Shown here piece by piece: positions 4,280 through 9,277 of a stretch of DNA of 32,099 bases (the stretch's first letter is position 1; each line of letters opens with the position of its first letter). The notes below the pieces were generated by a model that saw nothing but the letters and a program-made list of their open reading frames with translations, was not told the origin of the DNA and made no database searches. A program made the translations under genes and the position numbers. Source of the DNA: Syntrophaceae bacterium (GTDB lineage Bacteria > Desulfobacterota > Syntrophia > Syntrophales > UBA2185); the NCBI GenBank assembly GCA_003142295.1, contig PLLV01000060.1, positions 1-32,099 of the forward strand, written 5' to 3'.

Positions 4280-5128
4280 ATGGAACTCAGTGCAAAGAGT
4301 CAGAGCGGCACGGAAAGCAAAACTGCCTGGCGGCTTGTCAAGCTGCTGCTGTCGCCATTCACCGCAGCCGGCAGGAGAGCGGTCAGCTGGGTCAACAATT
4401 CCGGGGCCGCCGCAATTTTTCTCGTTCTCGCCCTTGTGAAGACCTTCTGGCACAAGCAGCTATCCAAGATAGTCCAGCAGCTCTATTACATCGGAGCGAG
4501 TTCCACGACCATCATTGCGCTGGTCGGCTTCTTCACAGGTATGGTCCTGGGTCTCCAGTCTTACCATGCCCTGGTTAAATTGGGCGCACAGGGGGCAATC
4601 GGCACACTCGTAGCTCTCTCGCTGGTAAGGGAATTGGGGCCCGTTCTCACTGCCATCATGATTACAGCGAGAGCCGGCTCCGCCATCACCGCGGAGATCG
4701 GTGTCCAGCGAATCTCCGAGCAGATCGACGCCCTGGACACCATGCGTATTGATCCAATGCGGTACCTCATCAGCCCGAGAATTATCGCTTCCATCATCAG
4801 CTTTCCCCTGCTCACCGCCCTGTTTGACCTCGTCGGCATCATCGGCGGCTACATCTCGGCAGTGGTGCTCCTGGGCGCTAACGCCGGCACCTACTTACAT
4901 CGTGTCCAGGCCAGCCTGGAAATGAAAGACCTCACAGACGGTTTTATCAAGGCAGTGGTTTTTGCCGTCATCGTCTCGACCGTTTGCTGTTACCAGGGCT
5001 ACTTCGCACACATGCGCCAGGACAGCCATGGGGCCAAGGCCGTCGGACTCTCCACCACCTCGGCCGTCGTGCTTTCCTGCGTACTCATTCTTGTGACGGA
5101 TTATGTAGTGACTTCCTTGCTGTTATAG
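4280..5128 (+). CDS. mlaE: MlaE-family ABC transporter permease
   Basis: This 282-aa inner-membrane permease is the channel subunit of the Mla phospholipid transporter, which moves lipids between the inner and outer membranes. It has five or six hydrophobic segments and the conserved family core: FTGMVLGLQ (85-93), the RELGPVLTAIMITARAGSAITAEIG stretch (about 117-141) and EQIDALDTM (147-155), which couples to the ATPase. The first 35 residues are hydrophilic and slightly longer than in the E. coli protein. The ribosome site is weak (GGGAAC). It leads a plus-strand operon, with mlaF starting 8 bp after its stop. Confidence 0.95.
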   Translation: MELSAKSQSGTESKTAWRLVKLLLSPFTAAGRRAVSWVNNSGAAAIFLVLALVKTFWHKQLSKIVQQLYYIGASSTTIIALVGFFTGMVLGLQSYHALVKLGAQGAIGTLVALSLVRELGPVLTAIMITARAGSAITAEIGVQRISEQIDALDTMRIDPMRYLISPRIIASIISFPLLTALFDLVGIIGGYISAVVLLGANAGTYLHRVQASLEMKDLTDGFIKAVVFAVIVSTVCCYQGYFAHMRQDSHGAKAVGLSTTSAVVLSCVLILVTDYVVTSLLL

Positions 5129-5136
5129 AGAGACCC

Positions 5137-6381
5137 ATGGATACTCCACTGATTGAATTCAAAAATGTCACGAAGCGCTTCGGAAGGCGGACTATCCTCG
5201 AGCGCGTTAACCTCAAAATCTATGAGGGAGAGGTGACGACCATCATCGGACTGAGCGGCGGAGGCAAGACGGTTCTCCTCAAGCATATCATAGGGCTCCT
5301 CAAACCTGACGAGGGAACCATCCTCTTCCGGGGCAAACCCCTCAACGGGATGAGCAAGATCGAAATGAATGCCTCCCTCGCCCAGATGAGCTACATGTTT
5401 CAGGACAACGCCCTGTTCGACTCCATGACGGTCTATGAAAATATCGCCCTGCCCCTTCGGGAAACGACGACCATGACAAAGGCTGAAGTCGACCGCAAGG
5501 TTATGGCAAGAATAGAGCAGACAGAACTCACCGACTCAGCCCGCAAGTTTCCCTCCGAGCTATCGGGAGGCATGCAAAAGCGGGCAGCCCTGGCCCGTGC
5601 TCTGGTAATAGACCCGAGTATTGTCCTCTTTGACGAGCCCACCTCCGGCCAGGATCCGGTCCGGAAAAATGCGATACTGGGCATGATTGCACAGTACCAG
5701 AGAAAATTCGGCTTCACGGCGATCGTGGTCAGCCATGAGATTCCCGACGTGTACTTTATCTCGAACCGCATTCTCGCCCTCTACGGCCGCGAAATCGTTT
5801 TCCAGGGCACTCCGGAGGAGCTTGAAAACTTCGACCACCCTTTCAAAGACGAGGTCATCCGCAGCCTGGAAGGTCTGCAAAAGGAATTGACGGGTCTGCA
5901 CTCCAGGCGGCAGTTCAAGGTTATGTATCATGGTCAGATGAAACGGAGATCCCTCAGGGATACATACTGTGTCGCGGTTTTTAAGCTGGAGTCACTGGAT
6001 GCCATCATTACGGGCCTGGGCCACGAATCGGCACAGGAGGCTATACAGTCTATGGGGGTGTATATCGATAAGCACTTTGGCGCCATAGGGGGCTTTTCCA
6101 CCCGCCGCAGCATCAATGAATTCGTTACGGTCCTTCCCTATTCGGAACTGGACGAAGCTGAGGACATGCTGAAAGATTTTGTCAAGGATTTTCAAGAGCA
6201 CGGAATTAGCGAGATTTGGGCGGGGGCCCGCGAGAGGACGGCACCGGGGACGTGCGTTGACTTCACCATCCTCGCCGGACTTGCCCAGGGACGGCCCATT
6301 GCAGAAATAGAAACCATTATAGCATCTGCTGAGAGTCAGCAGAAAGAAATTGGACGGCTACGGTGCGCCGCCGGGGAGTAA
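5137..6381 (+). CDS. mlaF: MlaF-family ABC ATPase with a C-terminal degenerate GGDEF-like domain
   Basis: This 414-aa protein energises the Mla lipid transporter. The ABC domain (1-245) has Walker A GLSGGGKT (38-45), signature LSGGMQKR (142-149), Walker B IVLFDEPT (162-169) and switch His200. The usual MlaF is about 250-270 aa; this one has about 160 extra residues. In the extension, residues 276-400 follow the order of a GGDEF domain: hydrophobic strand CVAVFKL, helix, FSTRRSINEFVTVLP (320-334) at the place of the RxGGDEF active-site hairpin, then a helix and a strand like the usual SIGIA. SINEF replaces GGDEF, so no cyclase activity is expected. The ATG at 5137 was chosen over an upstream in-frame start, which lies inside mlaE. 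Confidence 0.93.
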   Translation: MDTPLIEFKNVTKRFGRRTILERVNLKIYEGEVTTIIGLSGGGKTVLLKHIIGLLKPDEGTILFRGKPLNGMSKIEMNASLAQMSYMFQDNALFDSMTVYENIALPLRETTTMTKAEVDRKVMARIEQTELTDSARKFPSELSGGMQKRAALARALVIDPSIVLFDEPTSGQDPVRKNAILGMIAQYQRKFGFTAIVVSHEIPDVYFISNRILALYGREIVFQGTPEELENFDHPFKDEVIRSLEGLQKELTGLHSRRQFKVMYHGQMKRRSLRDTYCVAVFKLESLDAIITGLGHESAQEAIQSMGVYIDKHFGAIGGFSTRRSINEFVTVLPYSELDEAEDMLKDFVKDFQEHGISEIWAGARERTAPGTCVDFTILAGLAQGRPIAEIETIIASAESQQKEIGRLRCAAGE

Positions 6382-6385
6382 GCAA

Positions 6386-6874
6386 ATGAAAAAGTACCTC
6401 ATGGAGACAACTGTCGGCATCTTTGTCGTTTTGGGACTGCTCTGTATAGCGTATATGAGCGTCAAGCTTGGCCATGTATCCTTGCTTGGTGACAACTCCT
6501 ACTCTATCTTCGCGCGATTCACGTCCGTGTCCGGACTGAGAGTCGACAACCCTGTAAATATGCTGGGTCTGGAGATCGGGCGGGTGGAGCGGCTTTCCAT
6601 GGATCAGGCCGATCAAAGGGCAGTTGTGGAAATGCGAATAAAAAAGGATGTCAAGATTTACGATGATGCCATCGCTTCTATCAAGACGGAAGGGCTGATC
6701 GGTGACAAGTACGTCAGCATCGATCCCGGTGGCGCAGGTACAGTCCTCGAACCCGGCGGGACCATTACGGAGACGCAGCCGGCCGTGGACATTGCAGAGC
6801 TTATCGGCAAGTATGCCTTCGGTGACGTGAAAAAAACGGATGATGCCAAAAAAAATTCTGAGGTAAAGCCATGA
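6386..6874 (+). CDS. mlaD: MlaD-family MCE-domain lipid-binding protein
   Basis: This 162-aa protein is anchored in the inner membrane and forms the periplasmic ring through which phospholipids pass to MlaC. One N-terminal membrane helix (about 8-27) is followed by an MCE domain (about 38-116) containing the typical FTSVSGLRVDNPVNMLGLEIGRV and KTEGLIGDKYVSI stretches, then a short Lys/Asp-rich tail. Length matches MlaD of other bacteria. The ATG at 6386 lies 4 bp after mlaF and was preferred over an upstream frame that overlaps mlaF. Its TGA overlaps the ATG of mlaC, so the two are coupled. Confidence 0.95.
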   Translation: MKKYLMETTVGIFVVLGLLCIAYMSVKLGHVSLLGDNSYSIFARFTSVSGLRVDNPVNMLGLEIGRVERLSMDQADQRAVVEMRIKKDVKIYDDAIASIKTEGLIGDKYVSIDPGGAGTVLEPGGTITETQPAVDIAELIGKYAFGDVKKTDDAKKNSEVKP

Positions 6875-7464
6875 AGCGACTGTTCGTTGGATTAAGCATC
6901 CTGATGCTCTTTCTCATATCTCTTCCCGTGTATGCCGGCGCACCGCTTGACACGGTCAAGGCAAATGTCAACAAGGTTCTGGATATCTTGCGCGATCCAA
7001 AGATTAAAGCCGCATCGGCCAAAGAAATAAAAAAGGACAAGCTCCGGGTCATCTATGTCAACATGTTCGATGAAGTGGAACTTTCCAGGAGATCCCTGGG
7101 GCTGAATTGGAACAAACTCAACAACAATCAGCGCCAGGAGTTTGTTAAGCTGTTTGAACAGGTACTGGAAAAGGCTTATGCCGACAAGATTCTTGCTTAC
7201 ACCAACGAGAAGATCGAGTTTACCAAAGAATCCGTGATCTCGGGCAACCTGGCCGAGGTGCGGACGAGAGTTATCACCGCATCGAAGGAAATCCCGATTT
7301 CCTACAGAGTCATCTCGAAGGATGGCGCCTGGAAAGTGTATGACGTTGTTATAGAGAATGTGAGTCTGGTGCAGAATTACCGCACCCAGTTCAATGATAT
7401 ACTGGCAAAGAATTCGCCCGAACAGTTGCTTGAGATCCTGAGAAAAAAGGTGAAGGCGCAATAG
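6871..7464 (+). CDS. mlaC: MlaC-family periplasmic phospholipid-binding protein
   Basis: This 197-aa protein begins with a clear signal peptide, with likely cleavage after VYA (residue 22), so it is periplasmic. The mature part matches the Tol-Tol-Ttg2/MlaC family: an N-terminal helical region, an RRSLGLNWNKLNNNQRQEFVKLF stretch, and a C-terminal beta-sheet ending in YRTQFNDILAKNSPEQLLEILRKK. MlaC shuttles phospholipids between the MlaA complex in the outer membrane and MlaFED in the inner membrane. It overlaps mlaD by 4 bp (ATGA). Confidence 0.95.
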   Translation: MKRLFVGLSILMLFLISLPVYAGAPLDTVKANVNKVLDILRDPKIKAASAKEIKKDKLRVIYVNMFDEVELSRRSLGLNWNKLNNNQRQEFVKLFEQVLEKAYADKILAYTNEKIEFTKESVISGNLAEVRTRVITASKEIPISYRVISKDGAWKVYDVVIENVSLVQNYRTQFNDILAKNSPEQLLEILRKKVKAQ

Positions 7465-7508: not shown

Positions 7509-8447
7509 ATGAAATCTTTCTCGTTTGCGGTTCTGCTGTTAGCCTTCATCGCCGTGGGGTGTGCTCACGCGCCACAAGTCGCCTCTTCACCTGCATCACC
7601 GGCTGCATCCCTCCAGCCGCAACCGATTCTGGTTGCTTCCACCTCGGACGAGGTTCCTCCGAAACCGCCGGAGGCAACGGTCAAATCCCCGCAGACGCCG
7701 GTAAACCCTGAAAAGGGAACTGTCAATAACGATGCGAGCATGGATTACACGGAAGAAGGGAAGGAGGAACAGGCTCCAACAATTGCAGATCCCATCGAAC
7801 CCTTCAATCGGGCCATGTTCGAATTCAACGATAAGGTGTACTTCTGGCTGCTCAAACCCGTGGCGCAGGGATACAAAGCAGTCGTTCCCGAAGAAGCAAG
7901 GGTGAGCGTGAAAAATTTCTTCTCCAACCTGGGATTCCCGGCCCGTTTTGTGAGTTGCCTGCTGCAGGCGGACATAAGCTGCGCGGCCACGGAAGTTGGG
8001 CGCTTCACTGTAAACACCGTATGGGGCATCGGGGGACTGATGGACCCTGCGTCCAGCAAGGACTTGAATCTCCAGAAACAGGATGTGGACCTGGGACAAA
8101 CACTGGGAGTATGGGGAGTGGGACAGGGTTTCTACATTGTCTGGCCCCTCGCAGGACCCTCGAGCGCGCGGGATTCTATTGTCATACCCGGTGAATATTT
8201 CCTCTACCCCCCCTCCTATATGAGTGAGATCGCTCCCTGGTATGTATGGCCCATAATCAGGTCATACGAGGAGGTGAACAGGACATCTCTCAGGATCGGC
8301 GACTATGAGGCTCTCAAAGAGGCGGCCATCGATCCCTATGTGGCTCTCCGCGACGCCTATGTCCAGTATCGCTGGAAAAAGGTAAAGACGAAGAGGGGAA
8401 CGCAAATGGAGGAATCTGCTCCTGGGGGAGTAAGGATGGAGAGATGA
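7509..8447 (+). CDS. mlaA: MlaA (VacJ)-family outer-membrane lipoprotein
   Basis: This 312-aa lipoprotein removes misplaced phospholipids from the outer leaflet of the outer membrane. The signal peptide ends in AVG-Cys18, a somewhat weak lipobox. A Pro/Ala-rich linker of about 75 residues precedes the MlaA core, which starts at the diagnostic DPIEPFNRAMFEFND (about 97-111) and continues with FFSNLGFPARFVSCLLQ and RFTVNTVWGIGGLMDPA. The linker makes it longer than the roughly 250-aa E. coli protein. In E. coli mlaA lies apart from mlaFEDCB; here it is in the same operon. Its TGA overlaps the next ATG. Confidence 0.95.
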   Translation: MKSFSFAVLLLAFIAVGCAHAPQVASSPASPAASLQPQPILVASTSDEVPPKPPEATVKSPQTPVNPEKGTVNNDASMDYTEEGKEEQAPTIADPIEPFNRAMFEFNDKVYFWLLKPVAQGYKAVVPEEARVSVKNFFSNLGFPARFVSCLLQADISCAATEVGRFTVNTVWGIGGLMDPASSKDLNLQKQDVDLGQTLGVWGVGQGFYIVWPLAGPSSARDSIVIPGEYFLYPPSYMSEIAPWYVWPIIRSYEEVNRTSLRIGDYEALKEAAIDPYVALRDAYVQYRWKKVKTKRGTQMEESAPGGVRMER

Positions 8448-9277
8448 CGGGCCTGGGCGGGAATAACACAAAAAAATATAAGGCAGGAATTCTTACGAAA
8501 GCCCTCAGAATAATCGCGATGTCAGTATTCATGGCTCTCACCATCCATGGAATAGCTGCGGCCGGCGGGCCGTTCGGTCCACCCCAACCCATCGCAAGAG
8601 AGGCGGGAGGATTACACACGGCCATCGGCTACTGGCATCATGAAGACAGATACAAAAATGGCACAGAATTCGTAACTAGGCAGGATCAGGTTTATTCGGA
8701 AGCAGGCTACGGCGCGCAAAATCGCTGGGACATATATGCGCGAATAGGTGTGTCGAATCTGAAAATCCAGGATGCCTTCAGCTCTTCAAATGCTTTGACT
8801 ACGACATCCAGTAATGATTTTGACGAGAACTGGAAATTTTTTGGCACTCTGGGAGCAAAAGTGTTCTATCCTTTTAGCAAGACCTTCGGAATGGGGGCAT
8901 TTATACAGGGAACCTATTCCTTCAACAGTCTCAAAGATGATGTTTCGGGAACCAATGCCGGCACTCCTTATAGAGCGGTGCTCACTGTGCAAGATATGTG
9001 GGATGTGAATTTCGGCATTGGTTTTCAGGCCACCATTCCATATGGCATAAGGCTCTATGCCGGACCTTACGTCTATTATTCGGAAGCAACGGCATCTTTG
9101 TCCACGAACGTGCCGGGTCTTCAATTTTCAACAGCGGATACTACGATCAAAAATAAGACGAATGCAGGAGGGTTTGCGGGAATCGACTTGCCTCTCGCCA
9201 AGGGATTCCGCCTGAACGTCGAAGGACAATATTCCGAAAGATTCTCTTCCGGCGGCGCCATTACCTATACATACTGA
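8444..9277 (+). CDS. Outer-membrane beta-barrel protein, last gene of the mla operon
   Basis: This 277-aa protein starts in an ATGA overlap with mlaA. A basic N-terminus and hydrophobic stretch (about 19-40, MSVFMALTIHGIAAAGG) form a signal peptide; an internal ATG at 8519 would give a more typical start. The rest alternates polar and hydrophobic residues with many aromatic and Gly residues (WDIYARIGVSNL, WDVNFGIGFQATI, GIRLYAGPYVYYS), the pattern of an OmpA/OmpW-sized barrel of roughly 8-10 strands ending in aromatic TYTY. I cannot place it in a named family. Its position suggests a link to lipid trafficking or outer-membrane maintenance. Confidence 0.8.
   Translation: MTGLGGNNTKKYKAGILTKALRIIAMSVFMALTIHGIAAAGGPFGPPQPIAREAGGLHTAIGYWHHEDRYKNGTEFVTRQDQVYSEAGYGAQNRWDIYARIGVSNLKIQDAFSSSNALTTTSSNDFDENWKFFGTLGAKVFYPFSKTFGMGAFIQGTYSFNSLKDDVSGTNAGTPYRAVLTVQDMWDVNFGIGFQATIPYGIRLYAGPYVYYSEATASLSTNVPGLQFSTADTTIKNKTNAGGFAGIDLPLAKGFRLNVEGQYSERFSSGGAITYTY

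Follow-up and report, generated by a model that had tools for sequence, protein, structure and literature searches.

A degenerate GGDEF domain at the C-terminus of a Desulfobacterota MlaF ATPase, a candidate regulatory module of phospholipid transport

The window analysed here is a contig of 32,099 nucleotides from a Syntrophaceae bacterium, and it contains the genes mlaE, mlaF, mlaD, mlaC and mlaA in this order as a single run on the + strand. The run starts with the permease gene mlaE (4280..5128; 282 aa; Pfam MlaE, 5.7e-78), the product of which gave no match to a STAS domain in Pfam. This is followed by mlaF (5137..6381; 414 aa), which encodes an ABC ATPase with a C-terminal degenerate GGDEF domain, by mlaD for the MCE protein (about 6386..6874; Pfam MlaD, 1.1e-21), by mlaC (6871..7464; Pfam MlaC, 2.2e-46), and by mlaA for the lipoprotein (7509..8447; Pfam MlaA, 7e-67). 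Directly after mlaA there is an open reading frame (8444–9277) that by eye resembles an outer-membrane beta-barrel protein. The genome also encodes a second, distant MlaE-family permease (G000:C67:13653-14276; L201).

The first 245 residues of MlaF (5137..5871, + strand) form an ABC ATPase domain (Pfam ABC_tran, 1.3e-33). All the ATPase motifs are present, namely the Walker A GLSGGGKT, the signature LSGGM, the Walker B IVLFDE and His200, and the motif columns are nearly all invariant across 41 relatives. The closest NCBIfam model is MlaF (NF008809), at 200 bits and below its equivalog cut-off of 441. The assignment as MlaF draws on the intact motifs together with an operon shared with mlaE, mlaD and mlaC.

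The remainder of the protein, residues 250–409 (5884..6363, + strand), was identified as a degenerate GGDEF domain by Pfam and by fold search against the PDB. The Pfam GGDEF profile (PF00990), the cut-off of which is 23.8 bits, matched the protein (E 1e-5) and scored 25.6 bits with the whole MlaF and 28.1 bits with the domain by itself. It also matched 39 of 41 homologous tails, and among remote MlaF relatives the tails reach E-values as low as 4.4e-24 against GGDEF (L269). A single-sequence phmmer search of the PDB found no relative, and a profile built from the tail family retrieved SadC (5.6e-8), DgcR (4e-7), DgcB (2.6e-6) and PleD (1e-4). The AlphaFold2 model of the tail alone (pLDDT 81, pTM 0.79) led Foldseek to SadC, DgcB, PleD and other GGDEF structures with E-values down to 8e-8, the 50 fold-search matches listed being GGDEF-domain proteins, and VIA-align superposed the model on PleD with a Z-score of 15.0 and an rmsd of 3.2 Å over 151 residues. 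At the start of the domain, KELTGLHSRRQF (ELTGLHSRRQF; aa 249–260) matches DxLTGLxNRR, the motif that is canonical for the N-terminus of a GGDEF domain. From the profiles and the predicted fold taken together we regard the homology of the tail to GGDEF domains as settled: the ancestor of the pseudo-GGDEF domain was a diguanylate cyclase domain.

An earlier note on this DNA had described a normal ABC domain with about 160 extra residues and had proposed that MlaF ends in a degenerate GGDEF domain. Both points hold, the former with the ABC domain at residues 1–245 and some 165 residues beyond it, the latter through the sequence profile, the predicted fold and the relatives. The RxGGDEF-like hairpin to which it had pointed was likewise recovered, as FSTRRSINEFVTVLP is present and SINEF falls on the GGDEF hairpin in the PDB profile alignments. 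The DxLTGLxNRR-like KELTGLHSRRQF, which the note overlooked, is in our reading of the sequence a stronger GGDEF sign than those it listed. The note had further suggested a profile search with the last residues, a structure prediction and a look at close relatives; these gave, respectively, a Pfam GGDEF match above the cut-off, a GGDEF fold, and a full or nearly full fusion in 26 of the 60 genomes related to that of the window. It had also reasoned that a general MlaF C-terminal extension would speak against its proposal. Such an extension is indeed common to many Desulfobacterota MlaFs, but this does not refute the GGDEF identity, because the extension itself is a GGDEF domain. The note's wider suggestion, control of phospholipid transport through nucleotide binding or docking, is plausible as a hypothesis.

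The genomes sampled are Desulfobacterota, many of the assemblies being metagenome bins. In a second Desulfobacterota class (that of genome G216), the MlaF profile found 85 full-length copies in 71 of 241 genomes, as counted by hand from the profile-search table, and below these there is a sharp break to copies ending at about residue 245–285. Long and short MlaFs occur in the same E-F-D-C-A operon, and the long form is so placed across distant families. A chance reading or a frameshift artefact was considered as the origin of the tail, and is ruled out by conservation over the full length, at 49–93% identity and in at least dozens of genomes, together with the dN/dS of 0.16–0.38 within the domain. 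A further GGDEF-like open reading frame of 360 aa (L325:7751-8830) lies near the Mla operon of another genome (G612). In the titles and abstracts of the open-licence literature, we found no prior description of an MlaF-GGDEF or ABC-GGDEF fusion.

What the domain has lost is consistent across the family. Lys283 (5983..5985, + strand) occupies the position of PleD Asp327, the metal-binding aspartate, and Asp is found there in 2 of 127 distinct fusions. At the position of PleD Asp344, the guanine-binding residue, the window has Gln300, and 96 of the 127 have Gln. Residues 325–329 (6109..6123, + strand) read SINEF where, by alignment to PDB GGDEF chains, GG(D/E)EF would stand; neither GG at the catalytic site nor GG(D/E)EF was found in any of the 127, in which the site appears as SINEF, RSNEF, GMNKI, SRDQI and others. 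Arg323 (6103..6105, + strand), the arginine of RxGGDEF, is kept in 125 of 127. Since the catalytic residues are lost family-wide, diguanylate cyclase activity, and with it c-di-GMP synthesis, is not expected in any sampled fusion. With the GTP and metal residues gone, the former active site of the window's domain is likewise unlikely to bind a nucleotide.

The inhibitory site tells a different story in different branches. In the alignment of the 127 fusions, the window has AIGG (aa 316–319; 6082..6093, + strand) where the RxxD of the I-site would stand; RxxD is thus lost, and in the window's branch AIGG falls within a near-invariant GGFSTR. RxxD is kept in 21 of the 127 fusions, which form a separate branch in the second class and carry RITD, RLTD, RVTD, RISD and other forms. 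When 25 sequences were selected for the I-site Asp, the Arg was present in 84% of them, at a mean pairwise identity of 42% over the domain. Furthermore, the position of PleD Arg390, the third I-site residue, is Lys or Arg in 19 of the 25 Asp-keeping sequences versus 4 of the 102 others (Fisher p 7e-14, uncorrected for shared ancestry). In the window's branch the same position is mostly acidic, with 57 Asp and 3 Glu in 87 sequences. The RxxD branch therefore looks like the pattern expected of a PelD-type c-di-GMP receptor, the motif of which is absent from the window's domain, and we consider c-di-GMP binding plausible mainly in that branch rather than in the window's.

It could still be argued that the window's own domain binds c-di-GMP or another nucleotide and in this way gates transport. 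The GGDEF fold of the AlphaFold2 model and its fold-search matches, the near-invariant GGFSTR at the old I-site and the RxxD of the sister branch would all fit. Moreover, c-di-GMP is probably present in the cell, as other GGDEF proteins are encoded in the genome (10 matches, 9 of them over the cut-off). However, the replacement of RxxD by AIGG, the mostly acidic Arg390 position and the lost GTP and metal residues make this account improbable. For the window's lineage, the best reading of the sequences is that the domain is ligand-independent or has another ligand, while the ancestral role was perhaps c-di-GMP sensing. A broader scenario, which we put forward tentatively and would not bet on, is that the Desulfobacterota MlaF pseudo-GGDEF family began as a c-di-GMP receptor, that the branch with RxxD and the third residue ties phospholipid transport to c-di-GMP, and that the window's branch was rewired to another signal.

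A domain with so many lost residues might also be a decaying passenger without present function. In a phylogeny of the ABC part, made with a quick method and having many weak branches, domain presence changes at least seven times; the true number may be smaller, because two (L084, L085) of the four rows scored as short within the long group are contigs that are cut or frameshifted. Some losses are clear. Two proteins within the long group (L219, L089) keep a vestige of the first helix (EELRRELTDPYARSRF) and stop directly beyond it, and a short protein (L301) is sister to a long, further decayed one (L338) with an SH-aLRT of 99. Evolution is also faster in the domain than in the ABC part. In comparisons of the window with six relatives, dN/dS is 0.16–0.38 for the domain and 0.05–0.12 for the ABC part, the more distant pairs being near saturation at silent sites. 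Such losses and rates are what a passenger would leave behind, but the domain's ratio is well below 1, its frame is open throughout, Gly319, Ser321, Arg323 and Thr331 are invariant or nearly so among homologues, and the domain is kept in dozens of families. A passenger is thus hard to credit. As judged from these substitution rates, the domain is under purifying selection, constrained less than the ABC part. At its C-terminal end, Cys410 (6364–6366) is found in 60 of 67 close homologues and also in many remote members.

How might such a domain act? In the full-length AlphaFold2 model, the last ABC helix continues into the GGDEF-like domain through a linking helix (aa 235–252; 5839..5892, + strand) with a local pLDDT of about 60–75, the placement of the domain being uncertain (pTM 0.61). 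GGDEF domains function in dimeric form, carried at the tip of a helical stalk. Our preferred reading, to which we give a probability of roughly 0.6 from the model and by analogy, is that the ATPase is otherwise intact and the tail serves it as a module for regulation or dimerisation. Thus, the last ABC helix would serve as the stalk for the pseudo-GGDEF domain, the two pseudo-GGDEF domains of an MlaF dimer would pair below the ATPase domains, and this pairing would tune the approach of the ATPase domains and hence ATP-driven phospholipid transport. In the RxxD branch, pairing would probably be set by c-di-GMP at the kept I-site; in the window's lineage, the module would act without c-di-GMP, or with some other ligand, perhaps at GGFSTR. 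Regulation based on dimerisation is favoured because C-terminal domains of some other ABC ATPases self-associate, GGDEF domains dimerise on a stalk, and the helix is continuous in the model. Several lineages keep the operon without the domain, which indicates that it is not required for transport as such.

A simpler role would be that of a structural stand-in. E. coli MlaF pairs via a C-terminal handshake, and both this tail and the STAS protein MlaB are needed for assembly (PMC7367683). In the window's MlaF, the position of the handshake tail is occupied by the GGDEF-like domain, and the domain might merely hold the MlaF dimer together and on MlaE in place of MlaB and the handshake. In keeping with this, deletion of the E. 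coli tail is largely rescued by GCN4-forced dimerisation (PMC7367683), and a search of the window's genome, in an assembly that is 93% complete, gave no match with STAS_2, the one Pfam STAS family used for it. Nor was a STAS gene found inside any GGDEF-bearing mla operon examined, using PF13466 or a local profile of limited sensitivity, which missed an expected STAS-MlaE fusion (L218). However, a STAS gene was also missing (0 of 20) from operons of this type that encode a short MlaF, a form lacking a long tail as well as the domain, so that the lack of MlaB does not call for the domain. Replacement of MlaB as the sole explanation is weakened accordingly, and we regard the stand-in role as rather unlikely, if less so than nucleotide gating in the window's domain.

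STAS domains do occur elsewhere in these genomes. Many relatives have a further MlaE of about 390–440 aa that carries a STAS domain at its N-terminus and is encoded apart from the GGDEF-bearing operon (for example L217), and in one case (L337) a separate STAS gene lies just beyond the operon on the opposite strand. Another transporter type (L181–L199), in relatives from the same taxonomic order, consists of mlaE, a short mlaF (about 250 aa) and a large MCE protein (about 480–500 aa). It tends to occur where the GGDEF-bearing Mla operon is absent, and a few genomes (G020, G042 and G057) have both.

The post-translational regulation of Mla-type lipid transporters is an open question (PMC7367683). 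Under the regulatory reading, a built-in, signalling-derived domain on the ATPase would offer a direct handle on it. For the RxxD branch, the prediction is that lipid homeostasis at the outer membrane responds to c-di-GMP, the biofilm switch. Among close relatives there are natural pairs, one member having the domain and the other not, that permit a clean comparison.

Several known systems share features with this arrangement. First, E. coli MlaF has in common with the window's MlaF the ABC domain, the LSGGM signature with its Met, and the partner genes mlaE, mlaD and mlaC; it differs in having a C-terminal extension of about 25 residues (PMC7367683), as opposed to a 160-residue pseudo-GGDEF domain in an operon lacking mlaB. 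Second, MetNI, MalFGK and ModBC have C-terminal domains that associate with one another beneath the ATPase domains and regulate these (PMC7367683). The domains that follow the ABC part in MetN (ferredoxin-like) and in MalK and ModC (TOBE) are thought to regulate ATPase association, as is proposed here; by their description in the same report, they are not GGDEF domains, which sets them apart from the MlaF tail. Third, an ammonium transporter (PDB 8qj3) has a putative GGDEF-like C-terminal stretch, a weak match (E 0.46), and unlike the window's MlaF it is not an ABC ATPase. Finally, PelD and BcsE are, like the MlaF tail, GGDEF-derived and non-catalytic. In Bacillus cereus PelD, c-di-GMP binding depends on RxxD together with another Arg (PMC7112168), and BcsE, a second degenerate GGDEF precedent, binds c-di-GMP by RxxD (PMC7439463). 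The same binding motif is found in the RxxD branch of the MlaF fusions; unlike PelD and BcsE, the MlaF tail is fused to an ABC ATPase, and the window's copy is without RxxD.
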